This document shows positions 7,018 to 29,822 of a stretch of 64,000 bases of DNA, one piece after another. Origin of the DNA: Lachnospiraceae bacterium (GTDB taxonomy: Bacteria; Bacillota; Clostridia; Lachnospirales; Lachnospiraceae); the NCBI GenBank assembly GCA_028693165.1, contig JAQUVX010000002.1, forward strand, positions 154,173 to 218,172, in the 5' to 3' direction. How positions within the stretch are numbered: position 1 is the first letter of the stretch; each line of letters starts with the position of its first letter. The notes under the pieces were generated by a model that ran no database searches, was not told the origin of the DNA, and was given only the letters and a program-made list of their open reading frames with translations. The translations under genes were made by a program, and so were the position numbers.

Positions 7018-7043
7018 CCCGTTCCCAAGCCGAAAAAAGGCCG

Positions 7044-7086: not shown

Positions 7087-7087
7087 C

Positions 7088-12892: not shown

Positions 12893-14638
12893 TTACAACC
12901 GGGTATCCCAGCGCCCACAGAATACGTTCTCATCGCAGGTTCCCTCAAAAGCTTCTTCGCCTGCTGCTTTCCTGAGCGTCCGGGCAATCACCTCCCTCGT
13001 CGGCGCATAGGCATTGATGAACGTCTTGGCCATCGGCACATCCAGAAGATGATTCGTATAGTTCAGGGATACGAATACCGTCGGAAGCTCCTTCACATAC
13101 CATGGGATTTCCACAGAATGTCCGATCGACCATTCCAGGCGCACATTATTCTGCTGTGCATAGCCCTTCATATTGATAAACACAAACACGCAGTCATAGT
13201 TCTTCTTAAATGCCTCGACCTTGCCGATGACCACGGTCTTTAACTCTTCTTCGATGCCGACGGTCCCCTGTTTCAGTGATACATCATAAAAGCTGTCATG
13301 CATGGTTACCTCATAGCCATAGCGCTCCATCTCCTCCCGCACCAGCTTTTTGGCCGGATCCGGCTTGTTGCCGCGGGAGATCGGCGGGCTGCTGATCACA
13401 TACACATACGCCCGCTTGTGCGTCGCCGGCTTGACCGGCAGATTGTGCTGCGTATCCTTTACCAGCGTAATACTCTTTTTCGCGGCCTCCGCCGCCATCT
13501 CAAGATGCTCTTTGCAGCCGACCACGGAAAGTCCTTCTTTTGGCGGAATCAGTGTTCCGGCTTTCTGCTTTTCGGGGAGCTTTAAAAACGCTTTCAGTCC
13601 CAGAATCCGCGTTACCGCGTCGTCAAGGCGCTCCGGTGTCAGGATTCCAGACCGGTAGCCTTCCAGCATATAGCCAAAATCCTCCTCGATGTCATTGAAA
13701 AACAGGAACATATCGCACCCGGCAGCGATGGCCGTCGGCACCTGAAGGCGGCGCGGCAAAGCGCTGGTCATCCCCGCCATATGGGAGGCATCCGTCAGAA
13801 GCAGGCCATTGAAGCCCAGCTTTCCACGCAGAAGATCCTGTAGAAGCTCCGGTGCCAGTGTGGCCGGGCGGATCTCCTGATCCGTGATACCCGGCTTTAA
13901 CGCTCTGGAATATTCCGGCAGTGCGATGTGCCCCACCATGATGCTCGGAATGCCGCTGTCAATCAGTTCCCGGTACACCCGCCCGAAGCTCTCGTCCCAC
14001 TGGGCACAGGTCATGGTGTTGACCCCCATCACCAGATGCTGATCCAGTTCTTCCACGCCGTCTCCCGGAAAATGCTTGCAGCACACGGCCATATCGCTCT
14101 CCTGCACTCCGCAGATATACGCCTTGCAGTTCTCGATGACCCGCTCCGGATTTCTCCCGTAAGCGCGTGTATTGACGATGGTATTTCTCCAGTTAAACAG
14201 AAGATCGCAGACCGGACCAAAGTCCCAGTTGCAGCCCACTGCTGTTCCTTCCCTCCCGCTCACGTAGCCGGTGTTCCGGGCCGTCGTATCATCCGCCGTC
14301 GCCCCGCACGCCGCAGCCGTGGCAATGTGGGTTCCGTCCGAGCAGGCTCCGCTTCCGCCGTTGTCGCAGTTGCAGGCAATCAGAAGCGGAATCTTGCTGT
14401 GCTCCTGATAGAAGCGATTCTGCTCATAGATCTTTTCCGCCGGTTCATTTTGGTAACGGCAGCCGCCGATCCGGTAATCTTCGATCAGCTTTCTCGCTTC
14501 TTCCCGGTCTTTCTTTCGATCCAGCATGATGAAAAGCTGCCCGATCTTTTCCTCCAGCGACATCCCCACAAGGGTCTGCTCCACCCAGGCAATCTGCTCA
14601 CTGGTCAGGTAAAACGGTTTCTTAGTCAAATCTACCAT
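12893..14638 (-). CDS. Glycoside hydrolase family 3 (beta-N-acetylhexosaminidase type)
   Basis: Cytoplasmic GH3 enzyme of 581 residues, likely removing beta-linked N-acetylglucosamine (NagZ-type) or a related sugar. The catalytic barrel has KHFPGDGVEELDQHL (188-202), where Asp199 and His201 form the Asp-His general acid/base pair of the NagZ group. The usual GHG is GDG here. The nucleophile is Asp283 in LLLTDASHMAGM. A second alpha/beta domain follows from about residue 390 (SITLVKDTQHNLPV). No signal peptide, so it acts on imported oligosaccharides. With the glucuronidase in the same operon, the pair could dismantle GlcA-GlcNAc fragments such as those from hyaluronan. The specificity is inferred, and a beta-glucosidase activity is not excluded. 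Confidence 0.85.
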   Translation of the reverse strand: MVDLTKKPFYLTSEQIAWVEQTLVGMSLEEKIGQLFIMLDRKKDREEARKLIEDYRIGGCRYQNEPAEKIYEQNRFYQEHSKIPLLIACNCDNGGSGACSDGTHIATAAACGATADDTTARNTGYVSGREGTAVGCNWDFGPVCDLLFNWRNTIVNTRAYGRNPERVIENCKAYICGVQESDMAVCCKHFPGDGVEELDQHLVMGVNTMTCAQWDESFGRVYRELIDSGIPSIMVGHIALPEYSRALKPGITDQEIRPATLAPELLQDLLRGKLGFNGLLLTDASHMAGMTSALPRRLQVPTAIAAGCDMFLFFNDIEEDFGYMLEGYRSGILTPERLDDAVTRILGLKAFLKLPEKQKAGTLIPPKEGLSVVGCKEHLEMAAEAAKKSITLVKDTQHNLPVKPATHKRAYVYVISSPPISRGNKPDPAKKLVREEMERYGYEVTMHDSFYDVSLKQGTVGIEEELKTVVIGKVEAFKKNYDCVFVFINMKGYAQQNNVRLEWSIGHSVEIPWYVKELPTVFVSLNYTNHLLDVPMAKTFINAYAPTREVIARTLRKAAGEEAFEGTCDENVFCGRWDTRL

Positions 14639-14650
14639 TCTTTTTCCTCC

Positions 14651-15688
14651 TTATGATGTGTGGATTTTGCAGGAATCCCGCTCAATCAGCTCCGGCTTTA
14701 AAAATACGTGTCCCTCTTCCCTCTTGAGCGAGATTCCGCTCTGCATCCGAATCAGCATTTCGATGGCCCGCTTTACATGCAGGCTGTGGGAGATGGACAC
14801 CGTGGTGAGGCTGATCGTCGGAAGATCCGCATTGATGTTGTCAAAACCGATCAGGGACAATTCCTCCGGGATCGATATATTTCGCTCCACGCACGCCTTA
14901 ATCACGCCGTTTGCCGTCGCATCGCTGGCAGCGATGACCGCCTCCGGCAGCTTCGTTTTCTGTTCCAGAAATTCGCCAAACTGGCGATACCCCCGCTCAA
15001 AACTGCTTTTATACTGCCGCTCCGTCTCAAAGATCCGTCCCGCGACACCAGCCTGCTTCGTCACTCCCTGAAAACTCTCCACGCGCTTTCGGTGCGCCAT
15101 TCTGCGCGCATCATATCCAATAAACAGCATATCCCGAAATCCACATTCGATCAGATACCGCGCCGCGATCTCGCCGCTCTTCGCCTCATCGGTGCATACA
15201 TAGGGAATCGGATTGCCCTCCGGCATCTGGTTTAATGCCACGATCGGTACATACCGCATGAAATGATAGAGATTCTTGGCACTCTGTTCCCCGACCGGGA
15301 AAAACAAAATCCCCTCCACCTGATTACCGATCAGCAGCTTGAAGTAATCCTCCTCCATCTCATAGTTTCGGAAGCTGTTGCAGAAAAGAACCTGATAACC
15401 GAGAAGCTTGGCCTCTCCCGCCGCCAGTTCCATCAGCTTGGCATAAAACGGACTGGTGATATCCGGTATCACAATCCCGATCGTCTGCGTATGCTGCATG
15501 ACCAGTCCCCGCGCCAGGGAGTTCGGCACATAGGCCATGCGCTCGCACACCCCAAGCACATACTCTCTGGTCTCCTCGCTCATCCCCCCCAGACCATTTA
15601 ACGCCCGTGAGACGGTGGCGACCGAAACACCCGCTTCCCTGGCTACATCCTTGATTGTCGTCACTTTGACTCCCTGCTTTGCTTTCAT
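14651..15688 (-). CDS. LacI-family transcriptional regulator of the glucuronidase operon
   Basis: A LacI/GalR repressor of about 345 residues. The helix-turn-helix is at the N-terminus (TTIKDVAREAGVSVATVSRA, then LNG), followed by the hinge helix (YVPNSLARGL) and a periplasmic-binding-protein-like effector domain (IGIVIPDITSPFYAKL... LIGFDNI). An in-frame ATG at 15694 touches the AGAGG ribosome-binding site, so I prefer the ATG six bases later (15688). It is the first gene of the operon. A perfect 12-bp palindrome with a central CG (15710-15721) lies over its probable transcription start, the classical form of a LacI-family operator. It therefore probably represses itself and the whole operon until an imported sugar binds. 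Confidence 0.93.
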   Translation of the reverse strand: MKAKQGVKVTTIKDVAREAGVSVATVSRALNGLGGMSEETREYVLGVCERMAYVPNSLARGLVMQHTQTIGIVIPDITSPFYAKLMELAAGEAKLLGYQVLFCNSFRNYEMEEDYFKLLIGNQVEGILFFPVGEQSAKNLYHFMRYVPIVALNQMPEGNPIPYVCTDEAKSGEIAARYLIECGFRDMLFIGYDARRMAHRKRVESFQGVTKQAGVAGRIFETERQYKSSFERGYRQFGEFLEQKTKLPEAVIAASDATANGVIKACVERNISIPEELSLIGFDNINADLPTISLTTVSISHSLHVKRAIEMLIRMQSGISLKREEGHVFLKPELIERDSCKIHTS

Positions 15689-15709
15689 TTTCATCCTCTC
15701 AAGGGCTTC

Positions 15710-15736
15710 GTAAACGTTTACTATAAACGGATTATA
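15710..15736 (-). promoter_or_regulatory. LacI-type operator overlapping operon promoter
   Basis: The perfect palindrome GTAAACGTTTAC lies at 15710-15721 and a perfect TATAAT (minus strand) at 15731-15736. The palindrome thus covers the expected +1 region, where a bound repressor would block transcription. A CcpA (catabolite repression) site is an alternative, as both share a central CG. No convincing -35 hexamer was found. Confidence 0.7.
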
Positions 15737-15849
15737 ACATATTCATTTTGCACAAACCATCCGCGTAACAAACGATACAAATCGAGTAAACTTGTACATT
15801 TTTCACAATTTAGCAACAATAATTTTGTTAATTTTTTATCTTTTAAGGC

Positions 15850-15887
15850 ACAAAAAGACAGGGATGTTTGACTTTTCCATTCCTGTC
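15850..15887 (-). terminator. Terminator after the PTS-associated DeoR gene
   Basis: A 10-bp stem with one G-U pair (15857-15866 with 15878-15887) is followed on the minus strand by TTTTTGTG. It ends the EIIA-deoR transcript before the lacI promoter region. Confidence 0.8.
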
Positions 15888-15936
15888 TCTCTCTTCGGTA
15901 TCGTTTTGTTTTATTCCAGTCGGGTTTGTTCCTGTT

Positions 15937-16698
15937 CTAAAAATCTCCTCTTTTAACCTGATAAACTAAAATCCCTTTTTTTCGAATCTGCTCCAGCGCC
16001 TCCTCCGGTGCCTTTTCATCCGTGATCAGCATCTTCACCTTCTCGATCGGACTGCTGATAAAGCTGCTCTTTTTGCCGATCTTCGTATGGTCTGCAAGGA
16101 CGTATACCCCCTGCGTCGCATGATCGAACATCAGCTCATTGATGCTGACCTCGTGAAACAGCTCCGTCGTCACCCCCTTGTCCGCGCAGATTCCGGAACA
16201 GCCCAGAAACGCTTTCTTTGCATAGATCGGCTGTAGATTTCGAAGTGCAAACTCCCCGACCATCGCATTTTTCGGATGTCGAAGCTCTCCGCCTGTAAGC
16301 ACCACGCTGATGCTCTGGGAATAGTTGCAGCTGATTGCCTTTCCATTGTTGGTAATGATCGTGATGTTGCTGCCCTGGATATATTCCAGCATCTGTAGTG
16401 CATTGCGGCTGGTATTGATGAACAGACTGTCATTGGGATGCACCAGCGTCGCCGCATACTGTGCGATCAGCTTCCGGTAAATCTGAACATCATCTTCCCG
16501 CTCCTCTGACGCGACGGCCCCGCCGTAAACACGCTTTAGCTTCTTTTTATCTTCGAGGAACTGAAGATCCCTGCGAACGGTAATCAACGATACGTTCAGC
16601 CTGTTTGCCAGGTCTTCCACCCGCACTTCCGGATTGGTCCGCAGAATTTCCAGAATTTCCTTTCTTCGGTTATCTACATAGATCCGTTCTCTTTTCAT
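15937..16698 (-). CDS. DeoR-family transcriptional regulator (PTS locus)
   Basis: A 253-residue DeoR-type sugar regulator. The N-terminal winged helix-turn-helix reads EILEILRTNPEVRVEDLANRL then NVSLITVRRDLQFLEDKK, the family signature. The C-terminal sugar-phosphate sensor domain has NTSRNALQMLEYI, ITNNGKAISC and HTKIGKKS. DeoR proteins usually sense a phosphorylated sugar, which fits the PTS genes around it. It follows the EIIA gene by 12 bp, in one transcript from the promoter at 17303-17331. Two 13-bp repeats around that promoter are candidate binding sites, suggesting autoregulation. A strong terminator follows. Confidence 0.92.
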   Translation of the reverse strand: MKRERIYVDNRRKEILEILRTNPEVRVEDLANRLNVSLITVRRDLQFLEDKKKLKRVYGGAVASEEREDDVQIYRKLIAQYAATLVHPNDSLFINTSRNALQMLEYIQGSNITIITNNGKAISCNYSQSISVVLTGGELRHPKNAMVGEFALRNLQPIYAKKAFLGCSGICADKGVTTELFHEVSINELMFDHATQGVYVLADHTKIGKKSSFISSPIEKVKMLITDEKAPEEALEQIRKKGILVYQVKRGDF

Positions 16699-16710
16699 GT
16701 CTGCACCTCA

Positions 16711-17169
16711 TCAATGATCCAGGCAGGTCTCCTGAATACGCAAAAGATCTTCCGGTCCGTCTGCTTCCATAAGTTTTTCCACCACAGCTTCATTCATCAG
16801 CACCTCGGAAAGCTTCATCATGTTCTCCAGATGCTGATCGGAATCACAGGAAGCCAGGGTAAAGAACAGCTTTGCATTCTTCTCCGGATTGCCCTCCTCG
16901 AAACTGACCGGCTCGTCCAACTTCATAAAGCTGATCGTCGTCCTGTGGACTCCATGGGCTCCCTCCTGACAGTGCGGCATCGCCACATCCGGCATGATCA
17001 CGATATAGGGTCCGAACTTCTCAATACTCGCTATGATCTGTTCCTTGTAATCTGCTTCCACCGAGCCGTCTGCCTCCAGCGGTTCGCAGCACATGCGGAT
17101 CGCATCCCGCCAGTCCGTGGCTTTTTTTGCAAATTTATAATGATTTAACTGTACGAACTCTCGCAACAT
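16711..17169 (-). CDS. PTS EIIA component (fructose/mannitol-type domain)
   Basis: A 152-residue cytoplasmic phosphocarrier of the PTS_EIIA type 2 fold. The phosphorylated histidine is His66 in MPDVAMPHCQEGA. The start at 17169 follows AAGAGGAC; a longer in-frame opening would add 22 unconserved residues. It is the only EIIA gene in the 15.9-26.4 kb locus. It probably feeds phosphate to both IIB proteins encoded upstream (20405-20695 and 23881-24192). It is separated from the sulfotransferase gene by a terminator and has its own promoter, so its expression can be set independently. Confidence 0.9.
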   Translation of the reverse strand: MLREFVQLNHYKFAKKATDWRDAIRMCCEPLEADGSVEADYKEQIIASIEKFGPYIVIMPDVAMPHCQEGAHGVHRTTISFMKLDEPVSFEEGNPEKNAKLFFTLASCDSDQHLENMMKLSEVLMNEAVVEKLMEADGPEDLLRIQETCLDH

Positions 17170-17274
17170 AACATCGTCCTCTTTTCTTCTTCCGCATCCC
17201 GTATCGCTACGGTTCCCGGTTTTCACCAAACTCACTCGCTTCGCTTATCTGGATTTTCTTTTTATGATTGTATT

Positions 17275-17371
17275 TATGTTCGTTTTGTTCTTTACATCTT
17301 ATATAATACCACTTTTATATGCCGTTTTCAAGATTTTTATAGGATTGATTTGCATTTATATGTTCGTTTTG
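17275..17371 (-). promoter_or_regulatory. Promoter with two 13-bp operator-like repeats
   Basis: On the minus strand TTGAAA (17326-17331), a 17-bp spacer and TATTAT (17303-17308) form a good promoter for the EIIA-deoR genes. The 13-mer TATGTTCGTTTTG occurs exactly at 17275-17287 and 17359-17371, 84 bp (about eight helical turns) apart, one on each side of the promoter. This suits looping by the DeoR protein encoded downstream. Confidence 0.6.
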
Positions 17372-17387
17372 AGTTTGGTCAATCAAA

Positions 17388-17446
17388 CTTAAAAGAGTCC
17401 GGCAAGCCGGACTCGCGCGCTGTCGTGCGACTGCTTCCACAGCCAT
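17388..17446 (-). repeat. Dispersed palindromic element, copy A (also a terminator)
   Basis: GAGTCCGGC (17395-17403) and GCCGGACTC (17406-17414) form a hairpin followed on the minus strand by TTTTAAG, so it can end the sulfotransferase transcript. The 55 bp at 17392-17446 align without gaps to 27919-27973 (43 of 55 identical by my count), so this is a dispersed repeat family. Confidence 0.7.
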
Positions 17447-17488
17447 CTTGCAGGCAGCTTCCTATTCTCTCTTTACGCTCTCCGTAGT

Positions 17489-19357
17489 CTAACAGACAAT
17501 CCGGATTCCGGTTTCATATTTTTTGTCATCCACGATCATGCGCAGATTATAGGTTCCGCTCAGTCCCTGCTTGTTCACGCTCAGGGACACATTGCGCGGA
17601 TCCTTCTCAATGAACGTTCCGCAGCAGAGCGCTGTAAATTTGTTTTTGGAGGTTGAGATAAAATAACCATGCTCCTCCGCTTCATTCTCCAGCATCAGCA
17701 TCACCAGCTGGCCTCCCTCGAATACGGCCTTGAAGGTAAAGCGGTCTTCCTCCTCCACAAGCTTCGCCTCATAGCGATACGGCAGCATCTCACCGCAGGA
17801 CTCCATCGGAATCAGAGTGTCAGACTGCGGAGTCACACCCATCTGCCCCACAACGACTCCGGCTCCGATCGGGAGATTGTCCTGATCGTGATAGAGTCTC
17901 AGTTTCTCTGCCCGGTAGTAATTGCCCTTCAGCTTCAGCTCCATCATCTTCTGATCATGCAGAAGCTCCACCGTAATGCTCTCTGCCCGCACATCCGGAT
18001 CTCCCTGCATCAAAGCGGCCGGATGCTCGGAAGCCTCCTCCTTGTAATACTGGATTCCCCCGGAATGGACCATGTAATGTCCTTCCTGGTAGCATTCCAC
18101 ATTTCCGATATAAGAAGAAAAGAATTCCTGTCCCCGTTCTTTTCCGTACTGCCACACCTGTTTCACAGTTCCGTCTTCCCGATTGATGTGATAGCGCACG
18201 CCTCTGGAGAAGTTGTCCTTGTTCAGGCGAAACTCTTCTCTGAGCTTGGAGCGGTAGTGACCGTTGTCAAAGCACATCACATCCCCGTCCGTCGTAACCA
18301 TGCAGGCATGCTGCTCATAATGCCAGTCAAATTCCTGATGCGGATCCGGTTTAAAGAAATACTTCTGCTTCTCCTTCGGCCAGTTTCTGGGATCTCCCAT
18401 GATCCAGTTTAACTGCCCGGTCTCATAATCGATATTCACGATGCCGTCCACATGGCGGCCGCTCAGTGTCATGGTATGATTCTTCTCGTCATACCAGATT
18501 GCGTTGTTGTGGAACCAGTCCCGGTCGGTATATCCGCCGGAAGGCCCCTCTCCCGGAGTCAGAATCTTCTTCAGATCCCAGCTTCGAAGCACCGCACCGG
18601 TCTCACGATCCAGAAGCACCACCACATCCTCCACAGTCTCAAATGTCTCATCCTCACTCAAGACCAGGAGATTTCCGTCTTCCATCTCCCAGGTATCATG
18701 ATGATAACCGCCCGGAATCTTGTATTCCTTCACAATCTTCCCAACCATGGACATCTCATATAACCCGGACATGTAATAAGGCATTTTCAGCACGCGCTCG
18801 GTTCCAATCAGGATATTGCCGTTCTTCAGCCGTTTCAGATCGAACACCAGCGGCACATTGAAATGCCACCGGATATCTCCCCGATAGTCAAATGCAGCCG
18901 CCAGTGCATTCAGTGACGGTGTCACAAAGATCATCTGATCCCGCATATATTCCGGAGTCGTTTCCATGTAGCAAAGCTGAGGAGCATCCTCCCGCAGCGC
19001 CTCCGTCTCGATCTCCAGCTTCACCGTCCTTCCCTCGTACAAGGTCAGCTCCACCTTGTTTTGGCAGCCCGGATATAAGCCCAGCACCGGCAAAATGTGT
19101 TTCCTGGAAGCAGGAAATGTGTGTACGATATCTCCGGCTGCCTCCTTCCCGCATACGCGCAGTGTTACCGCACGCTCCTGCGGTGTCTCAAACAGAATAA
19201 CCGCCGCAAGCGGATTGATCAGATACGGGTTCCTTCTGACCAGTGGTCTGTCAATGGTATAGGCTCCCTGCTCAAACTCCTTAAGCATTTCGCGCTCTGC
19301 CTCTGTCTGCCTCTCAATCAGACTCGTTTCATATCTATATTGTATCGCTTCCTTCAT
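17489..19357 (-). CDS. Arylsulfate sulfotransferase (ASST family), no signal peptide
   Basis: A 622-residue protein of the arylsulfotransferase family, which moves sulfate from a phenolic sulfate ester to another phenol through a sulfo-histidine intermediate. An immunoglobulin-like N-terminal region (about 40-115) precedes a six-bladed propeller. His-containing propeller motifs are GGYHHDTWEMEDGN, DWFHNNAIWYDEK, LSGRHVDGIVNIDYETG and DWHYEQHACMV. The start at 19357 has AGAGGGG before it; an upstream in-frame ATG overlaps the regulator gene. Unlike the periplasmic Gram-negative enzymes, no signal peptide is visible, implying a cytoplasmic role. It follows the SorC regulator by 13 bp inside a PTS/sulfatase locus, so it may handle sulfate esters imported there. 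Confidence 0.87.
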   Translation of the reverse strand: MKEAIQYRYETSLIERQTEAEREMLKEFEQGAYTIDRPLVRRNPYLINPLAAVILFETPQERAVTLRVCGKEAAGDIVHTFPASRKHILPVLGLYPGCQNKVELTLYEGRTVKLEIETEALREDAPQLCYMETTPEYMRDQMIFVTPSLNALAAAFDYRGDIRWHFNVPLVFDLKRLKNGNILIGTERVLKMPYYMSGLYEMSMVGKIVKEYKIPGGYHHDTWEMEDGNLLVLSEDETFETVEDVVVLLDRETGAVLRSWDLKKILTPGEGPSGGYTDRDWFHNNAIWYDEKNHTMTLSGRHVDGIVNIDYETGQLNWIMGDPRNWPKEKQKYFFKPDPHQEFDWHYEQHACMVTTDGDVMCFDNGHYRSKLREEFRLNKDNFSRGVRYHINREDGTVKQVWQYGKERGQEFFSSYIGNVECYQEGHYMVHSGGIQYYKEEASEHPAALMQGDPDVRAESITVELLHDQKMMELKLKGNYYRAEKLRLYHDQDNLPIGAGVVVGQMGVTPQSDTLIPMESCGEMLPYRYEAKLVEEEDRFTFKAVFEGGQLVMLMLENEAEEHGYFISTSKNKFTALCCGTFIEKDPRNVSLSVNKQGLSGTYNLRMIVDDKKYETGIRIVC

Positions 19358-19370
19358 TATGGATTCCCCT

Positions 19371-20348
19371 CTAACGACCAACATCAGCCATGGATAAAAG
19401 CTTTTCTGCAATTCGGCTGTCCGTGATCAGACAATTAATCAGTTTCCCTTTGATTGCAGCGTAAATTGCATTTGTCTTGTCGATTCCTCCCGCCACAGCA
19501 ATGACATTCGGTACACGCAGAATTTCATCAAACTGAATTCCCACAATTCGGTCATTGATACGGTCATTCAGTTTACAGCCGTCTTTATCGAAGAAATAAC
19601 CGCACATGTAACCGACGGCACCTTTTCGGATCAGCTCCTGCTTTTTATGCTCAGATAAAAAGCCCATCCAGGTAACCACGCGTTCGTGTGAATAGACATC
19701 TGCAATACCCGTCACAATATAATTCACAGAGCGCCCTTTTTCCAGCGTACTCTGGATAATGCGCTCCTTCATCAGTTCTTTTCGTACGATATCATTTTCA
19801 ATATACATCGGTGCATAGAGAAGGGCATAGGAACCCCCATAGATCTTTGCCATCTCCTGAACAAGCGTAGGCGTATCGCGCTCGGTTGCATATGTCTCGG
19901 TCGAATTGCCGACCAGCTGCACCACCTGGATCCGTTTGGACTGTTTGGGTTTCATCTGACTCACCAGAATATGCATGGTATGGCCCCAGGAAAGTCCAAC
20001 CCGATCCCCATCCTTTAACACCCGGTCCAGATAGGAGGCTCCGATCTCGCCAATTCGCTTGATGGACACTTCCGCGTTTTCATTGTCATAAAGATCCGTC
20101 ACCACGACCGCATCCACCAGATCGAATTTTCGTTTCAGTTCCACCTCAAGAAGCGTTGACTGCTTCAGCGGGTAATTGATCTGAAACTCTACGATCTTCT
20201 GCTCTCTGGCAATGCGCAAAGCTCTGGAGACCTTCGCCTTGGAAAAGAACAGCAAATGCGCAATCTCCAGCTGGGACAGCCCCTCCACATAATACATGCG
20301 TGCAATCTCAGCGATGACGGACAACTCATTGTCTTCATACTGTCTCAT
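19371..20348 (-). CDS. SorC-family sugar-binding transcriptional regulator
   Basis: A 325-residue SorC/DeoR-type regulator. The N-terminal helix-turn-helix reads IAEIARMYYVEGLSQLEIAH then LLFFSKAKVSRALRIAREQK, and the rest is the sugar-binding domain (GLSWGHTMHILVSQM, VVQLVGNSTETYATE, VAGGIDKTNAIYAAIKGKLI). I chose the ATG at 20348 because GGAGGTGG sits just before it; an earlier ATG lacks a site and overlaps the IIB gene. It is encoded between the IIB gene and the sulfotransferase and very likely controls the promoter at 22208-22235 in response to a phosphorylated sugar. This is the third sugar regulator of the locus. Confidence 0.9.
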   Translation of the reverse strand: MRQYEDNELSVIAEIARMYYVEGLSQLEIAHLLFFSKAKVSRALRIAREQKIVEFQINYPLKQSTLLEVELKRKFDLVDAVVVTDLYDNENAEVSIKRIGEIGASYLDRVLKDGDRVGLSWGHTMHILVSQMKPKQSKRIQVVQLVGNSTETYATERDTPTLVQEMAKIYGGSYALLYAPMYIENDIVRKELMKERIIQSTLEKGRSVNYIVTGIADVYSHERVVTWMGFLSEHKKQELIRKGAVGYMCGYFFDKDGCKLNDRINDRIVGIQFDEILRVPNVIAVAGGIDKTNAIYAAIKGKLINCLITDSRIAEKLLSMADVGR

Positions 20349-20404
20349 ATTCCACCTCCGGTTTCCAGAGCTTCCCGCTTCCTTCTTCTGGTTACTTCTT
20401 CTGG

Positions 20405-20695
20405 TTACTGCTGCTGGTCGAGGCCACATTCCTGCAATTTGCTCTCCAGCTCTTTTTTGTTCATGAGATTTTTCAGGCCCAGAACGACGGTTCCCGCTTT
20501 CGGCTTAAAGCTCTTCACGAAATTCTCGCCTACGACAACCAGATCGTAATCATACGCGATCGTTTTTGCCTCATCAATACTGGTATGATACACCGTATTC
20601 TCGATACCCATTTTTTTCAGCACTGCCATGCAGTTCTGTTTGATCAGCTGGGAACTTCCCATTCCGCAGCCACATGCAACCAATACTTTTATCAT
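20405..20695 (-). CDS. PTS EIIB component (lactose/galactitol/ascorbate type)
   Basis: A 96-residue cytoplasmic IIB protein. The phosphorylated cysteine is Cys8 in VACGCGMGSSQLI, the P-loop typical of galactitol/ascorbate IIB proteins. Its ATG overlaps the IIC stop (ATGA at 20692-20695), so IIC and IIB are made together. The phosphate donor is probably the EIIA encoded at 16711-17169, because no closer EIIA exists. Confidence 0.92.
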   Translation of the reverse strand: MIKVLVACGCGMGSSQLIKQNCMAVLKKMGIENTVYHTSIDEAKTIAYDYDLVVVGENFVKSFKPKAGTVVLGLKNLMNKKELESKLQECGLDQQQ

Positions 20696-22134
20696 TCGTC
20701 ATCCTCCATTGCGAGATCAAAATAAATCTCTTTGTTATTGCGATACTGAAGCTGCGGGATACACAGCATACCCACGATGCAGAGAATCATGCCCGGCACG
20801 GTCAGATATTTGATCACGACACCCATAACCGGCCACAGTGTAGCCCAATCCAGGTTGCCCACATAGCCGCCGAAGGGGGCCATCTGGAACAGCACAATCG
20901 CCACCGCACTTCCCAGTACCTGAAGCACACCGGAACCGACGCAGCAGATAATCAAGGCCTTGATGCCGCCCCGAAGATTTGCAAACAATCCGATTGTCGC
21001 ATTATCGTAGAACAGCGGAACGAATCCCGGAATGATCATGATCGGGGATTTGAAAATCAGCAGTCCCGCAATTGCAATGACCTGACCTGCCGCACCAAAC
21101 AAAAATCCAAGTGTAACCGCATTCGGATCGCCAAAGGAGTAGGTTGCCGCACAGTCCACCGCCGGAAGGCTTCCCTTTAAGATCGAATTGGAGATTCCGT
21201 TAAAGGACTCTACCATCTCGCCTACAAACATACGAATACCGGTTCTGAGAATGACCAGATCCACCGCAAACGATGCACAGCGCTGGAAAATATAAACCGG
21301 GAAAGACAATCCTTTGCCGAAGTTTCCTGCATCCAGCTCTCGGAGCAGATCCTGTCCCAGGATGACCATGATCGCACCAAAGAACAGAAGCATCAGCAGC
21401 GTCGTGGAAACTACATAATCGTCCAGAATCTTAAGGGCTCCGCTCAAGTTCAATGCCTTCTTTTCTTCTTTCCCGTCCTTCTTCGCGAACAGCCCTCCAA
21501 ACTTATAGGCAAACCAAACACCCAGCATCTGCTGATGTCCTACCGCAAAGCCGGATCCCTCTGTCAGCTCCTGCGTTGCCTCTACGGTCAGATTGGAAAA
21601 TACCGACCAGTAAGTACCGATCAGAAGACCAACCAGTACGATACCGCCGAAATTGCGCAGACTCGGAATCAGAAGGAACACGATCCAGGTTGCCACAGCT
21701 GACTGTTTTACCATAATGTGTCCCGTCGTAAATAGCGTACGCACTTTGGTATATTTTCTAAAAAACACAAGTGTAATGTTCCAGATAAAGGCAATCAGCA
21801 GCGTAATCATTGCAAAGGAAGTCGTGATTCCGATACTTTCCAGTGCACTGTTTGCTGCGGTAAATCCAAAGTTCGGGTCAATGACAACCGCATCGATAGA
21901 CCATTTCTTCGAAACCCCATCGAGCAACGGCGACACCGTGTTTTTCAACAGCCCGGCTCCCGCCTGCAGAATCATATAACCGACCACCGTGCGAATAAAA
22001 CCTGCAACCACCTCATACCATTTCCGCTTCAATAGAATATATCCCGTCACAACAATAAGGCCGATAAAAATAGCCGGCTGAGACAGTATATTATTGAATA
22101 AAATATTCCATACATATGTAATTCCTGCTAACAT
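20692..22134 (-). CDS. PTS EIIC permease (UlaA/ascorbate type)
   Basis: A 480-residue polytopic membrane permease of the UlaA (PF03611, galactitol/ascorbate) class, with about ten hydrophobic segments. Family features include ILSQPAIFIGLIVVTGYILL at the start, EGSGFAVGHQQMLGVWFAY, and NAVTLGFLFGAAGQ. The ATG at 22134 is preceded by GAAGGAGGT; the longer frame adds 17 residues without a site. A good promoter lies 74 bp upstream. It phosphorylates its sugar during entry via the IIB gene that overlaps its 3' end. The substrate is unknown. The sulfatase and sulfotransferase next door suggest a sulfated or acidic sugar, since UlaA-class permeases can take acidic substrates. Confidence 0.92.
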   Translation of the reverse strand: MLAGITYVWNILFNNILSQPAIFIGLIVVTGYILLKRKWYEVVAGFIRTVVGYMILQAGAGLLKNTVSPLLDGVSKKWSIDAVVIDPNFGFTAANSALESIGITTSFAMITLLIAFIWNITLVFFRKYTKVRTLFTTGHIMVKQSAVATWIVFLLIPSLRNFGGIVLVGLLIGTYWSVFSNLTVEATQELTEGSGFAVGHQQMLGVWFAYKFGGLFAKKDGKEEKKALNLSGALKILDDYVVSTTLLMLLFFGAIMVILGQDLLRELDAGNFGKGLSFPVYIFQRCASFAVDLVILRTGIRMFVGEMVESFNGISNSILKGSLPAVDCAATYSFGDPNAVTLGFLFGAAGQVIAIAGLLIFKSPIMIIPGFVPLFYDNATIGLFANLRGGIKALIICCVGSGVLQVLGSAVAIVLFQMAPFGGYVGNLDWATLWPVMGVVIKYLTVPGMILCIVGMLCIPQLQYRNNKEIYFDLAMEDDE

Positions 22135-22207
22135 CCACGTACCTCCTTCAATACCTTTTCCTATGTCCCACTGGTTTCCCCTCATATATTGCGCGCTCTA
22201 TAGTTCC

Positions 22208-22235
22208 ATTATAGGTTGTTGCGAAACTTAGTCAA
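22208..22235 (-). promoter_or_regulatory. Promoter of the IIC-IIB-sorC-sulfotransferase operon
   Basis: On the minus strand TTGACT (22230-22235), a 16-bp spacer and a perfect TATAAT (22208-22213), 74 bp before the IIC start and downstream of the sulfatase terminator. Confidence 0.75.
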
Positions 22236-22350
22236 TGATCCAGGCTATTTTTGAAATTAATTTCACTTTTTCGCATTCTGTTTGTGATATTTATTTACAT
22301 ACGTCAAGTATTATCCATTTTTTTATACATTTTCACCATAATTCAAGCAT

Positions 22351-22386
22351 AAAAAAAAAGAAAGGCCGGCATCAACCGGACCTTTC
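22351..22386 (-). terminator. Terminator of the first PTS-sulfatase operon
   Basis: GAAAGGCCGG (22360-22369) pairs with CCGGACCTTTC (22376-22386, one bulge); on the minus strand a run of nine T follows. The hairpin overlaps the last codons of the sulfatase gene. Confidence 0.88.
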
Positions 22387-23871
22387 CTCTTCATTCAAGC
22401 CGAGACGCCAGAACTGCTCCTTCGGACTGTCATTCTCCACCATACAGCGTTTCATCGCTTCCATCATGCGCTGCTCCACCGCAGTGTCCTGGATGGGATT
22501 GGTCTGCCCCGGATCCTTTTCCAGATCATACAGCAGCGTTCCAAACCCGCATACCGGATATTTTTCCCTGGTTTTGATCTTCAGAACCGGACATCCCTTG
22601 GTAAAGGAAAACGGTTCCCGCAAGACAGCCTGTGCCAGTTCTTCCGGTCCAAACCGCGTATTCATGTGCGTCGTCATCAGTGTATAGTTATGGACATCAT
22701 GTTCTCTGCCCGGAACTGCCGCCCGCATGTATGTGTAATGTCCATCCGTAAGATTGACATGTCCGCTGAACACGCCATACATGGCATACTCTCTCACAGA
22801 GCGATCCGACCGAATCGTCTCCTCCAGATTATGCCCCTGCATATCCTTCGGAATTTCCGAATGAAAATAGCTCAAAAGCGTCGGTGCCCAGTCAATCAGC
22901 TGCGTGAGTGCTTTCCGGCGCTCCCCTTTTACCTGGCTTCGCGGATCCCAGATAAAGAGCGGCGTATTGGCAATCTCGTTGAAGTACGGCATCTGGTTCT
23001 TGCCCCAGTAACCGTGCTCCGAGAGCAGGAAGCCGTGGTCGGTTCCCACAATCAGCATGGTATCCTTCCACAGATCATACCGGTCCATCTGATCCAGAAT
23101 CCGCCCCAGATTATAGTCACACATGCTTACCAGCGCCTTGTACTGCCGCACGCAGTGGGCGATTTCATCCTCCTTCTCCTGCACCTTTCCTCTCGGCCAG
23201 TCGAAATGTTTTCCCGTGTAGTCCTCCGGATACAGATCCAGATATTTCTGTGGTACATAAAACGGCTCATGGGGATCAAAGGTCTCCAAATGAAGCAGCC
23301 AGTTGTCGGAATCATGGTTCTTGTCGATAAATTCACAGCCCAGATCAAAACATTTTGTCTGCGGAAAATCGCTCTCCTCCACGACATACTTGCGGTTTAC
23401 CCAGTCGTGCTTCCACAGGCCGGATTCACCGCCCCCCGTCTGCTTCTGCGGAACCCGCACCACCGGCGGAATCTGGGGCCGCTCCTTCTCCCCTTTCCAG
23501 TGGTCGCCTTCCTGTCCCCGGACAATCTCCCAGGAGGAGTAGCGGGGGTGATACGTCGCCCCGCCATCTTCCCAATAATGCAGATGATCACTGATCAAAT
23601 GCGTGTAAACTCCGTCCTGCTTTAGCAGCTCCGGCATGGAATCATCAAACGGTTCCAGCGGTCCCCACTCACGGTGCAGGAAATTATACCGACCGGTATG
23701 AAGCTCCCGCCGCGCCGGAATACATGGCATACTTCCGACATAATTGTTGTCAAATACCGCTGTATGCTGTTCCAGACGACTAAAATTCGGAGCAATGGTA
23801 TCGCAGTTTGGATTGTAGGTCGGCAAAAACTGCTTGTTCATCGTGTCGTAAAATACAACAATCGCTCTCAT
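22372..23871 (-). CDS. Type I (formylglycine) sulfatase, cytoplasmic
   Basis: A 499-residue sulfatase of the alkaline-phosphatase superfamily. The modification site is Cys50 in MPCIPARRELHTG (C-x-P-x-R-4x-T-G), which must be converted to formylglycine by an anaerobic maturase encoded outside the window. Other active-site motifs are VFYDTMN near the N-terminus, ETFDPHEPFYVP and the metal site TDHGFLLSEHGYWGKN. No signal peptide, so it works on substrates already in the cytoplasm. It is the third gene after a PTS IIC-IIB pair, with 9 bp to the IIB gene. The natural reading is that a sulfated sugar enters by the PTS and is then desulfated. The ribosome-binding site is weak (GTGAGA). The exact sulfate ester is unknown. 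Confidence 0.92.
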   Translation of the reverse strand: MRAIVVFYDTMNKQFLPTYNPNCDTIAPNFSRLEQHTAVFDNNYVGSMPCIPARRELHTGRYNFLHREWGPLEPFDDSMPELLKQDGVYTHLISDHLHYWEDGGATYHPRYSSWEIVRGQEGDHWKGEKERPQIPPVVRVPQKQTGGGESGLWKHDWVNRKYVVEESDFPQTKCFDLGCEFIDKNHDSDNWLLHLETFDPHEPFYVPQKYLDLYPEDYTGKHFDWPRGKVQEKEDEIAHCVRQYKALVSMCDYNLGRILDQMDRYDLWKDTMLIVGTDHGFLLSEHGYWGKNQMPYFNEIANTPLFIWDPRSQVKGERRKALTQLIDWAPTLLSYFHSEIPKDMQGHNLEETIRSDRSVREYAMYGVFSGHVNLTDGHYTYMRAAVPGREHDVHNYTLMTTHMNTRFGPEELAQAVLREPFSFTKGCPVLKIKTREKYPVCGFGTLLYDLEKDPGQTNPIQDTAVEQRMMEAMKRCMVENDSPKEQFWRLGLNEEERSG

Positions 23872-23880
23872 AAATCAATC

Positions 23881-24192
23881 TCACTTTCTGGCTTCCGGGT
23901 AATATTCGTCAACAATACCTCCGATTTTTTCTGCGATTCCTGCCCCATCCATGATGTTAACCAGCGGAATTACATGCTCCTCCGGCTTAAATTCCACGCC
24001 TTCCAGAAATTTCTTCAAAATACAGATGATATCCGCCCAATCGCGCATGGAACCCATTTCACCCAGAGACGTATGCTTTACCTCTGCACTGATCCCCTTT
24101 GCCTTCAGGCTTTTGTTGACCATCAGCTCCGCCATGGTACTGGTTCCCATCCCGTAGCCACATACAAACAATACATTTACGGAATCTTTCAT
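23881..24192 (-). CDS. PTS EIIB component (second ascorbate-type system)
   Basis: A 103-residue IIB protein with the phosphocysteine Cys11 in LFVCGYGMGTSTM. It follows its IIC gene by 15 bp and precedes the sulfatase gene by 9 bp, in one transcript from the promoter at 25610-25639. It has an AAGGAG ribosome-binding site. No dedicated EIIA is present in this sub-operon. Confidence 0.9.
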   Translation of the reverse strand: MKDSVNVLFVCGYGMGTSTMAELMVNKSLKAKGISAEVKHTSLGEMGSMRDWADIICILKKFLEGVEFKPEEHVIPLVNIMDGAGIAEKIGGIVDEYYPEARK

Positions 24193-24207
24193 TGTCCCGC
24201 TCCTTTC

Positions 24208-25509
24208 TTAGTGAAGAATACCACCAATCCATTTCATAACTTCAGTTACCGCCGGCCAGAAGGTCGAGAAGTCAAACATACCAGACCAGCCTGCACCTGC
24301 CGGATACTGCATCAGGTCAATTGCCCATACCGTTCCAAAGGACTGAATCATGCCAAGCAGCAGACAGCAGACGATCACGGCCCGGATACCGCCCTTTTTG
24401 TTGGCTACCACACCGATCGGACCACCCGAGAAGAGAAGCGGCGTTGATCCCGGCAGCACCAGCACCGGACTTCCAATCAGCAGCAGAATTCCAATACTGA
24501 TCGCAGTTCCGATGGTACAGAAAACAAATCCCAGCGTTGCCGCGTTCGGAGAAAACGGCAGCAGCGCTGCCACGTCGATCGCCGGAATCGCGTTTGGCAC
24601 AATCTTTTCCTGAATGCCCTTGAATGCTGCGGTCATCTCGGAACACATCATTCTCACACCGGTCAGCAAAATTACCATATCCATCGAAAAATTAATACCA
24701 ACCATAATAATATAATTGATCCAGTTTGATCCGCCTGCCAGCTCCTTGATTCCGCCGATTCCCAGAGGAATCATAAATGCGCCTGTAAAAATCCACATGA
24801 TGACGCAGACTGCGGTGGTACTGTTGTTAAAAATTGCAAGGATTCCCGGCAGTTTTAAGTTCTCCGCATCCTGTTTCTTGTCTCCAAACAGATGCGCGAT
24901 TTTCCCGAAGAACCAGATACCGAGCTGCTGGTTGTGGCCTACGGTAAAGCCGCCGCCCTCCGTCACATCGTCAATCACCCCGGATGCCAGCGTGGTCGAA
25001 AATGCCCAGTAGATTCCAACCAGAATACCGGAAATAATGACTGCCGTCGTGCTTTTTACCATAAGGTTTGCAATGACCAGCCAAAGCACCGCCTGTGCAT
25101 GTGCCGTTCCCGCATTACCGGTCAGGAATACACCTCTGCATTTGGTATATTTTCCAAAATACACCAGAATAATATTGACCGCGAATGCAATCAGGAACAC
25201 GTAGCCCATAAATGCAAAATTATCACCGAGTGCTTCCTGGCTCGTCGCCTTCATTGCATATGAGTCCATGATATAACCCTGAATTCCTGTTGCGGCACTG
25301 ACTGCCGCCGCAATCGGCTTAAAGGTGCTGGTAAACTGTGCTCCCCCGAACAATACCATCTGAATGCCGACCATCGCGCTGATAGTGCCTGTGATTACCT
25401 TTGTTGATTTTTCTTTTTGCAGTATATATCCGATACCGATCAATAGCCCGATCAGTATAACCGGCTGCGTCAAAAAATCTTTTAAAATGATGTTTGCTAC
25501 ATTACCCAT
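24208..25509 (-). CDS. PTS EIIC permease (second UlaA-type system)
   Basis: A 433-residue UlaA-class membrane permease homologous to the one at 20692-22134 but clearly diverged. Shared features are FLTQPVILIGLLIGIGYILQ, EGGGFTVGHNQQLGIWFFG and NAATLGFVFCTIGTAIS. The start at 25509 follows CAGGAGGG; the longer frame would run back into the promoter. It is the first gene of the IIC-IIB-sulfatase operon. Having two related permeases in one locus suggests two related substrates, for instance differently sulfated sugars. Confidence 0.92.
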   Translation of the reverse strand: MGNVANIILKDFLTQPVILIGLLIGIGYILQKEKSTKVITGTISAMVGIQMVLFGGAQFTSTFKPIAAAVSAATGIQGYIMDSYAMKATSQEALGDNFAFMGYVFLIAFAVNIILVYFGKYTKCRGVFLTGNAGTAHAQAVLWLVIANLMVKSTTAVIISGILVGIYWAFSTTLASGVIDDVTEGGGFTVGHNQQLGIWFFGKIAHLFGDKKQDAENLKLPGILAIFNNSTTAVCVIMWIFTGAFMIPLGIGGIKELAGGSNWINYIIMVGINFSMDMVILLTGVRMMCSEMTAAFKGIQEKIVPNAIPAIDVAALLPFSPNAATLGFVFCTIGTAISIGILLLIGSPVLVLPGSTPLLFSGGPIGVVANKKGGIRAVIVCCLLLGMIQSFGTVWAIDLMQYPAGAGWSGMFDFSTFWPAVTEVMKWIGGILH

Positions 25510-25609
25510 TTTCGTTTTCCCTCCTGAATTTTTGACCTTTGCATACAAAAAAATGAGGATATCCTTTTCCATAACCGTATTGTGCGGCACGTTCAAATTT
25601 GATATCCTC

Positions 25610-25672
25610 ATTATAGGTAATTGACTTTGTTTCTGTCAACGAATTTGATTGATTTGATTGATTTTTGATTGA
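25610..25672 (-). promoter_or_regulatory. Promoter with tandem TTTGATTGA operator-like repeats
   Basis: On the minus strand a perfect TTGACA (25634-25639), an 18-bp spacer and a perfect TATAAT (25610-25615). Just upstream are three copies of TTTGATTGA (plus-strand reading) at 25644-25652, 25653-25661 and 25664-25672. They reach the end of the deoR gene encoded before it, whose product is the obvious candidate binder. Confidence 0.7.
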
Positions 25673-25673
25673 T

Positions 25674-26429
25674 TTAACCAATTCTGGTCGTATAGCCTCT
25701 CGAAGCTGTTTTCCAGGTCCGGTCTTCGCTCATGGGCTTGTTGGTGATCAGGATCGCCCGTTTCGTCGCCGAAGCCGGAATCGTGTACATCGCAGTCCGG
25801 TTAAACTTCCGCTCCCCGGCAAGAATATAGCTCTGCTTCGAGTTGCGGATGGCAATCTTCTTGATGTCATGTTCATACTCATCTGCCGACAAAAGACCAT
25901 ATCCCTCATCCAGTCCATTGACTCCGAGAAAGGCCTTGTCGAACCGAAACTCCCGCAGCATATCAAGCGTCTGGCGCCCCACAACCGCTCTGGAATATTC
26001 TTTCAGAAACCCGCACAGCAAAAGGGCATTGATTCCCTTCTGCTTCAGGCTCTCAAGCTGTGGAATTCCATTCGTCACAACGGTAAGCTTCGTCGTCTGA
26101 ATGTAGTCGATCATTGTCAACGTCGTCAGGCCGGAACCGATAAAAATCATCTCCTGATCCTGCACCAGACCACCTGCAATCTCCCCGATAATCCGGAGAT
26201 TTTCTGTGATCACGCCATCCATGATACTCCGGGTACGAACCGGCGCATGATGATTGCGCTGCGCTCCGCCCCAATACCGCTCGACCGCATTCTCCTTCTC
26301 CAGAAAGACAAGATCGCGGCGAATGGTAGCCTGGGAGACATCCAGCGATTCCGCAAGCTGCGTGTAGGACATCTTTCCATTGATGTCCAGAAGTTCCAGT
26401 ATCTTTGTTCTTCGTTTATTGTACTTCAT
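25674..26429 (-). CDS. DeoR-family transcriptional regulator (upstream of PTS-sulfatase operon)
   Basis: A 251-residue DeoR-type regulator. The helix-turn-helix reads ILELLDINGKMSYTQLAESL then DVSQATIRRDLVFLEKEN. The sensor domain has IGSGLTTLTMIDYI, VVTNGIPQLESL and FLGVNGLD. It starts four bases after the proS stop with no clear ribosome-binding site, so it may be translated by re-initiation from proS. Its stop lies immediately upstream of the promoter of the IIC-IIB-sulfatase operon, where three TTTGATTGA repeats are candidate operators. It is distinct from the DeoR protein at 15937-16698 and probably controls the other half of the locus. Confidence 0.9.
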   Translation of the reverse strand: MKYNKRRTKILELLDINGKMSYTQLAESLDVSQATIRRDLVFLEKENAVERYWGGAQRNHHAPVRTRSIMDGVITENLRIIGEIAGGLVQDQEMIFIGSGLTTLTMIDYIQTTKLTVVTNGIPQLESLKQKGINALLLCGFLKEYSRAVVGRQTLDMLREFRFDKAFLGVNGLDEGYGLLSADEYEHDIKKIAIRNSKQSYILAGERKFNRTAMYTIPASATKRAILITNKPMSEDRTWKTASRGYTTRIG

Positions 26430-26432
26430 CGC

Positions 26433-27866
26433 TTAGTACGCTCTGCCCCAGTACACCATCTTCTTCGCCGGTTTGCCGCAGCAGATACATTTATCTGAAA
26501 TCTGCTCCTGAGCAAATGGCATGCAACGGGAGGTTGCCGCGGTGTCTTCCTTGATCTTGTCCTCACAGGCCTGATCGCCGCACCACATGGCCTTCACGAA
26601 GCCCGGCTTCTCGTTGATGATCTTTACAAAGGTATCGTAATCAGCCGCCTGATAGGTATGTGCATCCCGGTGTTTTCTTGCCTTCTCAAGCATATCCTGC
26701 TGTATGGTATCCAGCAGTTCGCCAACCTTTGCCGCCAGCTCATCCATGGAAACCGTCAGCTTCTCATGGGTGTCACGGCGCACCAGAACTGCTTCGTTGT
26801 TCTCAATATCTCTCGGTCCGATCTCCACGCGTACCGGAATGCCACGCATCTCAGACTCGCTGAATTTCCAGCCCGGACTCTTGTCCGAATCATCCACCTT
26901 CACGCGGAAGCCAGACAGTACCTCACGCAGTGCAAATGCCTTATCCAGCACGCCTTCCTTCTGCTGCTGAATCGGCACGATCATCACCTGCGTCGGTGCG
27001 ATGCGAGGCGGTAGCACCAGTCCGTTGTCGTCGCCGTGTACCATGATGATGGCACCGATCATACGGGTCGTCATGCCCCAGGAGGTCTGGTGCACATACT
27101 GAAGGGAATTGTCCTTTGCTGCATACTGAATCCCGAACGCCTTTGCAAAACCGTCGCCGAAGTTGTGGCTGGTGCCGGACTGCAATGCCTTGCCGTCATG
27201 CATCAGAGACTCGATCGTGTAGGTCGCCTCCGCACCGGCGAATTTCTCCTTGTCGGTCTTCTGACCGCGGATCACCGGAATCGCCAGAACCTCCTCGCAG
27301 AAATCCGTATACAGATTCAGCATCTGGATGGTTCTCTCCTCAGCTTCCTCTGCGGTAGCATGTGCGGTATGACCCTCCTGCCACAGGAATTCTCTGGAGC
27401 GCAGGAACGGACGGGTCGTCTTCTCCCAGCGCACAACGGAACACCACTGGTTGTACACCTTTGGCAGATCGCGGTAAGAATGAATGTCCTTCGCATAGAA
27501 ATCACAGAACAACGTCTCGGACGTCGGGCGCACGCACAGACGCTCCTGAAGCGGCTCCAGACCGCCGTGGGTCACCCAGGCAACCTCCGGCGCAAATCCC
27601 TCTACGTGGTCTTTCTCCTTTTCCAGCAGACTCTCCGGAATAAACAGCGGCATGTAAACGTTCTCCACGCCCGTCTCCTTAAAGCGGCGGTCCAGCTCAT
27701 GCTGAATATTCTCCCAGATCGCATACCCCGCCGGCTTGATCACCATGCAGCCCTTCACGCTTGCGTAATCGCACAGCTCCGCCTTCTTTACCACATCCGT
27801 ATACCACTGCGCAAAATCTACGTCCATCGATGTGATCGATTCCACTAATTTCTTATCCTTCGCCAT
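26433..27866 (-). CDS. proS: Prolyl-tRNA synthetase, archaeal/eukaryotic type
   Basis: Class II aminoacyl-tRNA synthetase of 477 residues that charges tRNA-Pro. The short type without the bacterial editing insert is recognised by length and by [25 protein letters not shown]. Motif 2 appears in [20 protein letters not shown] and then EGHTAHAT, with the proline-binding region before it ([12 protein letters not shown]). The C-terminal zinc-binding extension (CGDQACEDK... CICCGKPA) ends in a conserved Tyr. It has an AAGGAG ribosome-binding site. Control is by a T-box leader at 28041-28340 that senses uncharged tRNA-Pro. A dispersed palindromic element lies between the leader's terminator and the start codon. 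The deoR gene follows at three bases. Confidence 0.97.
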
Positions 27867-27900
27867 GATTGTTTTACTCCTTCTTTATTTTCATTGTTGT

Positions 27901-28039
27901 CAATTCCTGTGATTTAACAAAGAGTCCGGCTTGCCGGACTCGCGCGCCGGAGCGCGGTCGCTTCAGCGGCCATATTTCCTTAGCGCGGAGTGCGCATCCC
28001 CCGGAGGGTTTGTATCACAGGACGCAATTCCCTGTGATA
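27901..28039. repeat. Dispersed palindromic element, copy B, with flanking direct repeats
   Basis: Hairpin GAGTCCGGC/GCCGGACTC (27922-27941) continuing into GC-rich sequence that matches copy A at 17392-17446 for 55 bp. The unit is bounded by CAATTCCTGTGAT (27901-27913) and CAATTCCCTGTGAT (28025-28038), which look like a target-site duplication. At the right end TATCACAGG/CCTGTGATA (28013-28039) forms an inverted repeat. It lies in the proS 5' leader. Confidence 0.6.
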
Positions 28040-28040
28040 T

Positions 28041-28340: not shown

Positions 28341-28345
28341 GCTCG

Positions 28346-28374
28346 ATTCTACGTCAATTCGTGAGGTTTGTCAA
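28346..28374 (-). promoter_or_regulatory. Promoter of the proS T-box transcript
   Basis: On the minus strand a perfect TTGACA (28369-28374), a 17-bp spacer and TAGAAT (28346-28351), immediately upstream of the T-box leader. Confidence 0.8.
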
Positions 28375-28410
28375 GTGCAAACCCGGGTGTTTATTGATGT
28401 TTATTGCTGC

Positions 28411-29813: not shown

Positions 29814-29822
29814 AATAATCTC

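Follow-up and report, generated by a model that had tools for sequence, protein, structure and literature searches.

The window analyzed here, a stretch of 64,000 nucleotides within contig C42 of a 3.6 Mb Lachnospiraceae genome, carries at positions 15937-26429 ten genes, all on the minus strand, which combine two EIIC-EIIB pairs of the phosphotransferase system (PTS) with EIICs of the UlaA type, a Cys-type sulfatase, an arylsulfate sulfotransferase (ASST), a SorC-family regulator, two DeoR regulators and a single EIIA. An earlier note on this DNA had described precisely this gene set, and the coordinates and Pfam matches, above cut-off for every one of the ten, bear it out. The genes are listed below together with a palindrome; likely starts were chosen on good ribosome-binding sites.

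25674..26429, minus strand: DeoR1, regulator of the DeoR/GlpR family and first gene of the conserved block (DeoRC 121.5 bits, with HTH_DeoR)
24208..25611, minus strand: IIC1, UlaA-type EIIC of the sulfatase-linked clade (EIIC-GAT 313.3 bits; likely start 25509, after AGGAGGG)
23881..24192, minus strand: IIB1, PTS EIIB (PTS_IIB 47.4 bits)
22372..23871, minus strand: cytoplasmic Cys-type formylglycine sulfatase (Sulfatase 109.6 bits; CIPAR motif)
20692..22185, minus strand: IIC2, second UlaA-type EIIC (EIIC-GAT 309.4 bits; likely start 22134)
20405..20695, minus strand: IIB2, PTS EIIB (PTS_IIB 60.5 bits)
19371..20429, minus strand: SorC-family regulator (Sugar-bind 232.1 bits; likely start 20348)
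17489..19411, minus strand: ASST (Arylsulfotrans, PF05935, 343.7 bits, plus its N-terminal domain; likely start 19357, after AGAGGGG)
17395..17414, minus strand: terminator-like palindrome 3' of the ASST gene (8-pair stem with T tail)
16711..17235, minus strand: UlaC-like EIIA (PTS_EIIA_2 105.9 bits; likely start 17169)
15937..16698, minus strand: DeoR2, UlaR-like regulator (DeoRC 127.3 bits, with HTH_DeoR)

Only 15 bases separate IIC1 from IIB1 and nine separate IIB1 from the sulfatase gene, while IIC2 and IIB2 overlap by four; wider gaps precede IIC2 (186 bases, counted to its longest frame) and separate EIIA from ASST (253 bases). The earlier note had treated all ten genes as one locus, a view that comparative genomics upholds for eight of them. 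In a sample of 24 genomes of the genus, comprising the window's own and 23 others that were searched, the complete set DeoR1-IIC1-IIB1-sulfatase-IIC2-IIB2-SorC-ASST (17489-26429) recurs in one, the congener G412, with 80-94% identity (IIC2 93%, IIB2 91%, SorC and ASST 81% each) and with other flanking genes. At the DNA level the two are similar, in four pieces, over 17490-26431, a span whose ends fall within the stop codon of the ASST gene and two bases upstream of the start of DeoR1. EIIA and DeoR2, on the other hand, lie beyond the terminator-like palindrome and do not adjoin the block in G412; their relatives in G412 and in another congener, G172, belong to ula operons (in G172 and G412, respectively, 74 and 78% identity for EIIA and 69 and 76% for DeoR2). 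For these reasons, we take 17489-26429 as the conserved block and 15937-17235 as a ula-type neighbor, the EIIA of which is probably transcribed separately from the block.

A smaller core, IIC1-IIB1-sulfatase, recurs beyond these two genomes. A scan with the sulfatase gave 11 named loci, and IIC1 and the sulfatase occur together at 13 loci: the window, G412, L054-L059, L061, L063, L064, L159 and L160. Two further loci, L060 (cut at a contig end) and L062 (without a PTS match), were left out of this count; the L054 and L055 sulfatases are 99% identical, L055 being a 3.2 kb contig. The sulfatases of the other 12 core loci share 70-82% identity with that of the window, except for 53% in L159, and if loci with sulfatases about 79% identical or more are grouped, the 13 make up five groups; the nearest relatives come from records called Lachnoclostridium, Clostridium, Lachnospiraceae, Merdimonas, Peptoniphilaceae and the like. 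DeoR1 precedes IIC1 in nine of the 12 other loci (46-80% identity). At L064 the sulfatase gene (4399-5883) is apparently split by a stop, which may reflect assembly error or gene decay. A search of 397 genomes of the family with IIC1 (E 1e-100) found it in five, each of which has the sulfatase clustered with IIC1, in one of them (G065) three genes apart.

The core also occurs in the Enterobacteriaceae, where the sulfatases of E. coli and Enterobacter are 64% identical to that of the window. Between rlmC and artJ, E. coli can have an operon of three genes, IIC-IIB-sulfatase, which 552 of its 5,426 complete genomes possess, in every case on the chromosome. In a single E. hormaechei record, IIC-IIB-sulfatase adjoins a divergent ASST-family gene, and an anaerobic sulfatase maturase lies some kilobases away. 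Since this ASST-family protein is only 24% identical to the window ASST, its sequence suggests that an ASST-family gene probably joined the core twice; the Enterobacter gene has no DNA match in E. coli genomes. The earlier note had proposed co-conservation as a check on its idea, and this holds for the IIC-IIB-sulfatase core, in the 13 clostridial-type loci and in E. coli, but not for the full set, which is limited to G412 among the congeners, with a distant ASST in the one Enterobacter record.

The sulfatase motif, CIPAR, conforms to the Type I (S1) formylglycine sulfatase signature (C-x-P/A-x-R type), and its residues C50, P52, A53 and R54 are identical in all 28 aligned sequences. The window's genome encodes an anaerobic sulfatase maturase (390.9 bits, cut-off 349.45). 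Neither the sulfatase nor the ASST, the latter hydrophilic from its likely start, has an N-terminus resembling a signal peptide as judged from hydropathy only, in agreement with the earlier note, which had called the sulfatase cytoplasmic and the ASST devoid of a signal peptide. An AlphaFold2 model of the sulfatase, built on nine close homologues, reached a mean predicted local distance difference test score of 46.7.

Some formylglycine enzymes of the PF00884 family act on phosphorus esters, and both PehA, far below its cut-off, and phosphonate monoester hydrolases appear among the matches of the window enzyme. That it hydrolyzes phosphonate or phosphate esters instead of sulfate esters seems to us very improbable nonetheless, because two features of its surroundings point to sulfur oxyanions: in two lineages the core has an ASST-family gene as neighbor, and 8 of the 13 core loci (L054, L055, L056, L057, L058, L059, L061 and L160) contain genes of the TauE or ChrA type. 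The latter genes were Pfam-checked in three loci (L054, L058 and L040, a second designation for the L056 contig); no gene of these two types, the only exporter families sought, was found at L063, L064, L159, the window or G412. At L040, a gene for an LVIVD-repeat protein (6370-7530) stands between the ChrA pair and IIC1.

The order of the genes, the constant company of IIC1 and the sulfatase in the family and these putative exporters all support the earlier proposal that a substrate is taken up by the PTS and desulfated inside the cell. The 'sulfated sugars' named there as the substrate are probably too broad, as indicated by an association with UlaG. A UlaG match (E 1e-80 or better) is present in 11 of the 13 core genomes, as against two of 22 congeners and four of 43 family controls (6/65 together), a difference with a Fisher p of 1.0e-7 that is calculated without kinship correction or tree, and each of the five sulfatase-identity groups contains at least one genome with UlaG. 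In the window's genome, UlaG (602.4 bits to PRK11709, cut-off 306) lies on contig C26 with UlaE, UlaF, a protein here termed c13 and an FGGY-like kinase, and without PTS genes; UlaG and the PTS block on C42 are hence on different contigs and not in one operon. Sulfatase genes also occur within UlaG clusters: a scan of called frames at 20 UlaG loci found them in three, none of these being among the six loci from control genomes. Lastly, both permeases match the UlaA structure 4rp8 (IIC1 with 295.4 and IIC2 with 288.1 bits), and the block holds two of the three EIIC-GAT genes of the genome. On the basis of UlaG co-occurrence, of sulfatases in UlaG clusters and of UlaA-type permeases, we lean, with moderate confidence, towards reading the block as a system for PTS-coupled intracellular desulfation that would most likely feed the L-ascorbate (ula) pathway. 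The lack of an annotated EIIA in the E. coli operon counts in favor of this reading, as do the TauE- or ChrA-type genes, the pocket changes common to the IIC1-type permeases (see below) and the similarity of the window's EIIA and DeoR2 to ula-operon genes of congeners.

The same data allow a different view, in which the PTS would import sulfated hexoses or hexosamines released from mucin or glycosaminoglycans, desulfation would deliver a sugar phosphate to glycolysis and the UlaG link would merely mirror a shared lifestyle. Several ascorbate-contact residues are lost in IIC1, the window's genome has ten PF00884 matches, and no UlaG match, UlaG being the sole ula enzyme among the queries, was found beside any of the 13 cores in the stretches examined, all of which would suit such a role. 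We nevertheless consider it rather unlikely in view of the contrast between 11/13 and 6/65 for UlaG, of the three loci with sulfatases inside UlaG clusters and of EIICs that belong to the ascorbate family.

Several observations weigh against an ascorbate-like substrate. Two core genomes, G420 and G422 (only 1.6 Mb), have no UlaG match, and two of the copies counted appear broken, through assembly error or gene decay: that of G428 (L214 10044-11144) has four in-frame stops and that of G412 (L187 9758-10901) matches in two pieces in different frames. The core genomes are partly related, and the congeners were screened with IIC2 and not, except for G172, with IIC1 or the sulfatase; the 43 family controls lack IIC1. 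A UlaA-type match is found in three of eight non-core genomes with distant sulfatase relatives (G033, G110 and G148), compared with 19 of 397 in the whole sample, so a general lifestyle link behind the co-occurrence is possible. More distant sulfatases (46-55%) are widespread in other hosts, and the surroundings of one of them, in Paenibacillus, include no gene annotated as ula nearby, a metallo-beta-lactamase-fold hydrolase 3 kb off being unexamined. A comparison of the ulaG-ulaA spacer of E. coli with the region preceding its sulfatase operon, made to find a shared operator, reached at best 15 identical bases of 18, which does not exceed the 13-16 obtained with 20 shuffles each; the stretches in common may be CRP sites. 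Finally, IIC2 and an EIIC of G033 adjoin sulfatases without having the pocket of IIC1.

This pocket was compared at the ascorbate-contact positions of UlaA reported in PMC6048161. Window IIC1 carries S59G, H135N, I136A, Q139A and Q195N, and S59G, H135N, Q139A/S and Q195N, all smaller than the residues of UlaA, are found in 14 of 14 IIC1-type rows, which keep H194, R288, D314 and F362 without exception. Of these rows, 11 are clostridial, the window and G412 among them, and three belong to Enterobacteriaceae, of which two come from E. coli. Row L037 (28%, another type) was excluded from the count; the table has no separate rows for L054 and L056, whose contigs are those of L158 and L040, respectively, and none for the fragment L055 or for L059, the frame of which was hidden in the calling of open reading frames. 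By comparison, H135, Q139 and Q195 are each kept in 13 of 14 UlaA-type EIICs that lie beside UlaG. IIC2 has a different pocket from that of IIC1 (S59A, Y87N, Q139K, F362Y and M410N), and its N87, K139 and N410 are shared by the G033 EIIC. The latter (L119 275-4009) is a UlaA-type protein 50% identical to IIC2, encoded beside a different sulfatase and a 700-amino-acid protein with an EIIA-like part. Because several contact residues of UlaA are changed in both, neither IIC1 nor IIC2 can be filed as a plain ascorbate permease. Judging from these alignments, the smaller side chains of IIC1 would fit a bulkier ligand.

Sulfated vitamin C is a host metabolite, and we infer that the substrate is probably a sulfated ascorbate or a close analogue, with L-ascorbate 2-sulfate as what we take to be the natural candidate. 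In the scheme that we propose, IIC1, with its changed pocket, and IIB1 would import the sulfated ascorbate and phosphorylate it at O6, for which the neighboring UlaC-like EIIA may serve both EIIC-EIIB pairs. Inside the cell the sulfatase, once activated by the anaerobic maturase, would then remove the sulfate, and the resulting ascorbate 6-phosphate would be degraded by the ula enzymes of contig C26, UlaG included. Export of the sulfate may, in many relatives, fall to the TauE- or ChrA-type proteins. IIC2-IIB2 and the ASST, for their part, may act on a related substrate that is also sulfated, or else transfer the sulfuryl group onto a phenolic acceptor. The content and order of the genes, their conservation and co-occurrence and the differences between pockets are observed, whereas the substrate, the sequence of steps, the function of the exporters and the part played by the ASST are inferred.

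The place of this second half in a common pathway is less assured, and the block could instead be two adjoining systems, a PTS-sulfatase unit and, next to it, another PTS that together with ASST and SorC would serve some unrelated aryl sulfate or phenolic compound. The 186-base gap separates the two halves, and IIC2 and ASST are missing from 11 of the 13 core loci. Moreover, ASSTs elsewhere, in 17 loci of the family and 11 of congeners other than G412, adjoin CitMHS transporter or sulfite reductase genes and in no case relatives of the window's PTS genes, the PTS families sought being those of the window, and in E. raffinosus the ASST has no adjoining sulfatase or UlaA-type PTS gene by annotation. 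Against such a division, all eight genes stand together in G412 between different flanks, and an ASST-family gene, albeit of only 24% identity, lies beside the core in E. hormaechei. On balance, we regard two unrelated systems as unlikely, though an alternative to be taken seriously. The window ASST retains HHD, HNN, SGRH and EQH at the positions aligned with the active site of AssT.

ASST pairs in other loci show an arrangement of their own, between a TrxR-like oxidoreductase and AsrABC-type sulfite reductase genes and with CitMHS, as seen in the window's own genome (L036 4554-15112, contig C2) and in L135, L136, L139, L140 and L144. The last five also have a thioredoxin gene, and several of the ASST-pair loci contain a Crp-type regulator and siroheme genes; the ASST-AsrABC loci could serve to turn organic sulfate esters into sulfite and sulfide. 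In four congeners (L174, L176, L182 and L183), the ASST nearest to that of the block (63-64%) lies back to back with a second ASST-TrxR-CitMHS set, and thioredoxin was called in three of the four. The physiological roles of the ASST family are described as poorly understood in a 2026 review (PMC13426309).

The sulfatases within UlaG clusters belong to two kinds of arrangement. At L062, a 70% identical sulfatase ends the run TctA-UlaG-UlaF-epimerase-transketolase-transketolase-UROD-c13-like-GntR-like, in which the GntR-like call was read by eye. G253 and G427 have TctA...sulfatase-FGGY-like kinase-UlaG-c13-UlaE-UlaF, with sulfatases 50-51% identical to that of the window and with sulfatase and kinase genes that overlap by one base. 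TctA-sulfatase-kinase clusters are located at L210 5463-16143 and L217 3461-13181. They may constitute a second, PTS-free design for the same pathway, which pairs a non-phosphorylating transporter with a kinase, whereas the PTS design needs none. The strongest form of the hypothesis would then be an L-ascorbate 2-sulfate pathway in two designs, one by PTS uptake and phosphorylation followed by desulfation and the other by TctA uptake, desulfation and FGGY kinase, both ending at UlaG, with the ASST of the block sulfating phenols from imported ascorbate sulfate as donor instead of releasing the sulfate; this extended version is speculative, and we judge it improbable. The protein c13 (L122 13294-14343 and relatives), of about 350 amino acids (349), is present in many of the ula clusters examined and is matched by nothing in Pfam or NCBIfam and by nothing credible in the Protein Data Bank. 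It might replace UlaD.

The earlier note knew of no described system with this set, a claim that is partly wrong, since PTS-sulfatase sets have been noted before. In Streptococcus pneumoniae, SPH1922-SPH1930 are listed together as a lactose-type PTS, a sulfatase, a maturase and TauE (PMC3302838). This cluster resembles the block family in uniting PTS, sulfatase and a TauE-family exporter in one operon, with no substrate named in the section that lists it, and differs in its lactose-type PTS, its own maturase and the absence of any mention there of an ASST, the block EIICs being EIIC-GAT. For Sebaldella termitidis, PMC3219644 reports a duplicated ula regulon with a sulfatase and a Cof-like hydrolase, described as insertions; there too a sulfatase gene sits among copies of an ascorbate-type operon. 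Streptococci take up hyaluronan disaccharides through a PTS, according to PMC9067506. With respect to the L-ascorbate ula regulon itself (UlaA-UlaB-UlaC, UlaG and UlaD/E/F), the block shares the EIIC family, UlaC- and UlaR-like neighbors and UlaG/E/F in the same genome, but adds a cytoplasmic sulfatase and an ASST, has a changed IIC1 pocket and stands on a different contig from the ula enzymes. Bifidobacterium breve reportedly combines intracellular sulfatases with ABC uptake of a sugar sulfate, and thus desulfation in the cytoplasm without phosphorylation at transport; the block is like it in the proposed desulfation after uptake and differs by its PTS. Its ASST has the Arylsulfotrans domain and the aligned active-site His, Asn and Arg positions of E. 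coli AssT (3elq, 4p04), but, unlike the periplasmic AssT/DsbL type, lacks a signal-peptide-like N-terminus and adjoins a PTS. No bacterial pathway for ascorbate 2-sulfate was found in the open-licence literature, judged by title and the start of the abstract. Were the proposed pathway correct, a route for sulfated vitamin C would exist in gut-type Clostridia and in roughly one in ten of the complete E. coli genomes. It would also explain why a sulfatase resides in a PTS operon, give a cytoplasmic ASST a natural setting and turn 'PTS plus sulfatase' into a pathway testable in a model organism.

As for the rest of the region, promoter-like sites were not above shuffles (17 against 15.8), and Rfam at its gathering threshold gave no match within 13000-30000. 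Another PF00884 sulfatase gene lies in the window at 58096-59136 on the minus strand (129.5 bits). The stem of the palindrome behind ASST occurs twice, at 17396-17413 and 27923-27940 (two matches, 0.01 expected), and the two copies bracket the block together with a prolyl-tRNA synthetase gene.

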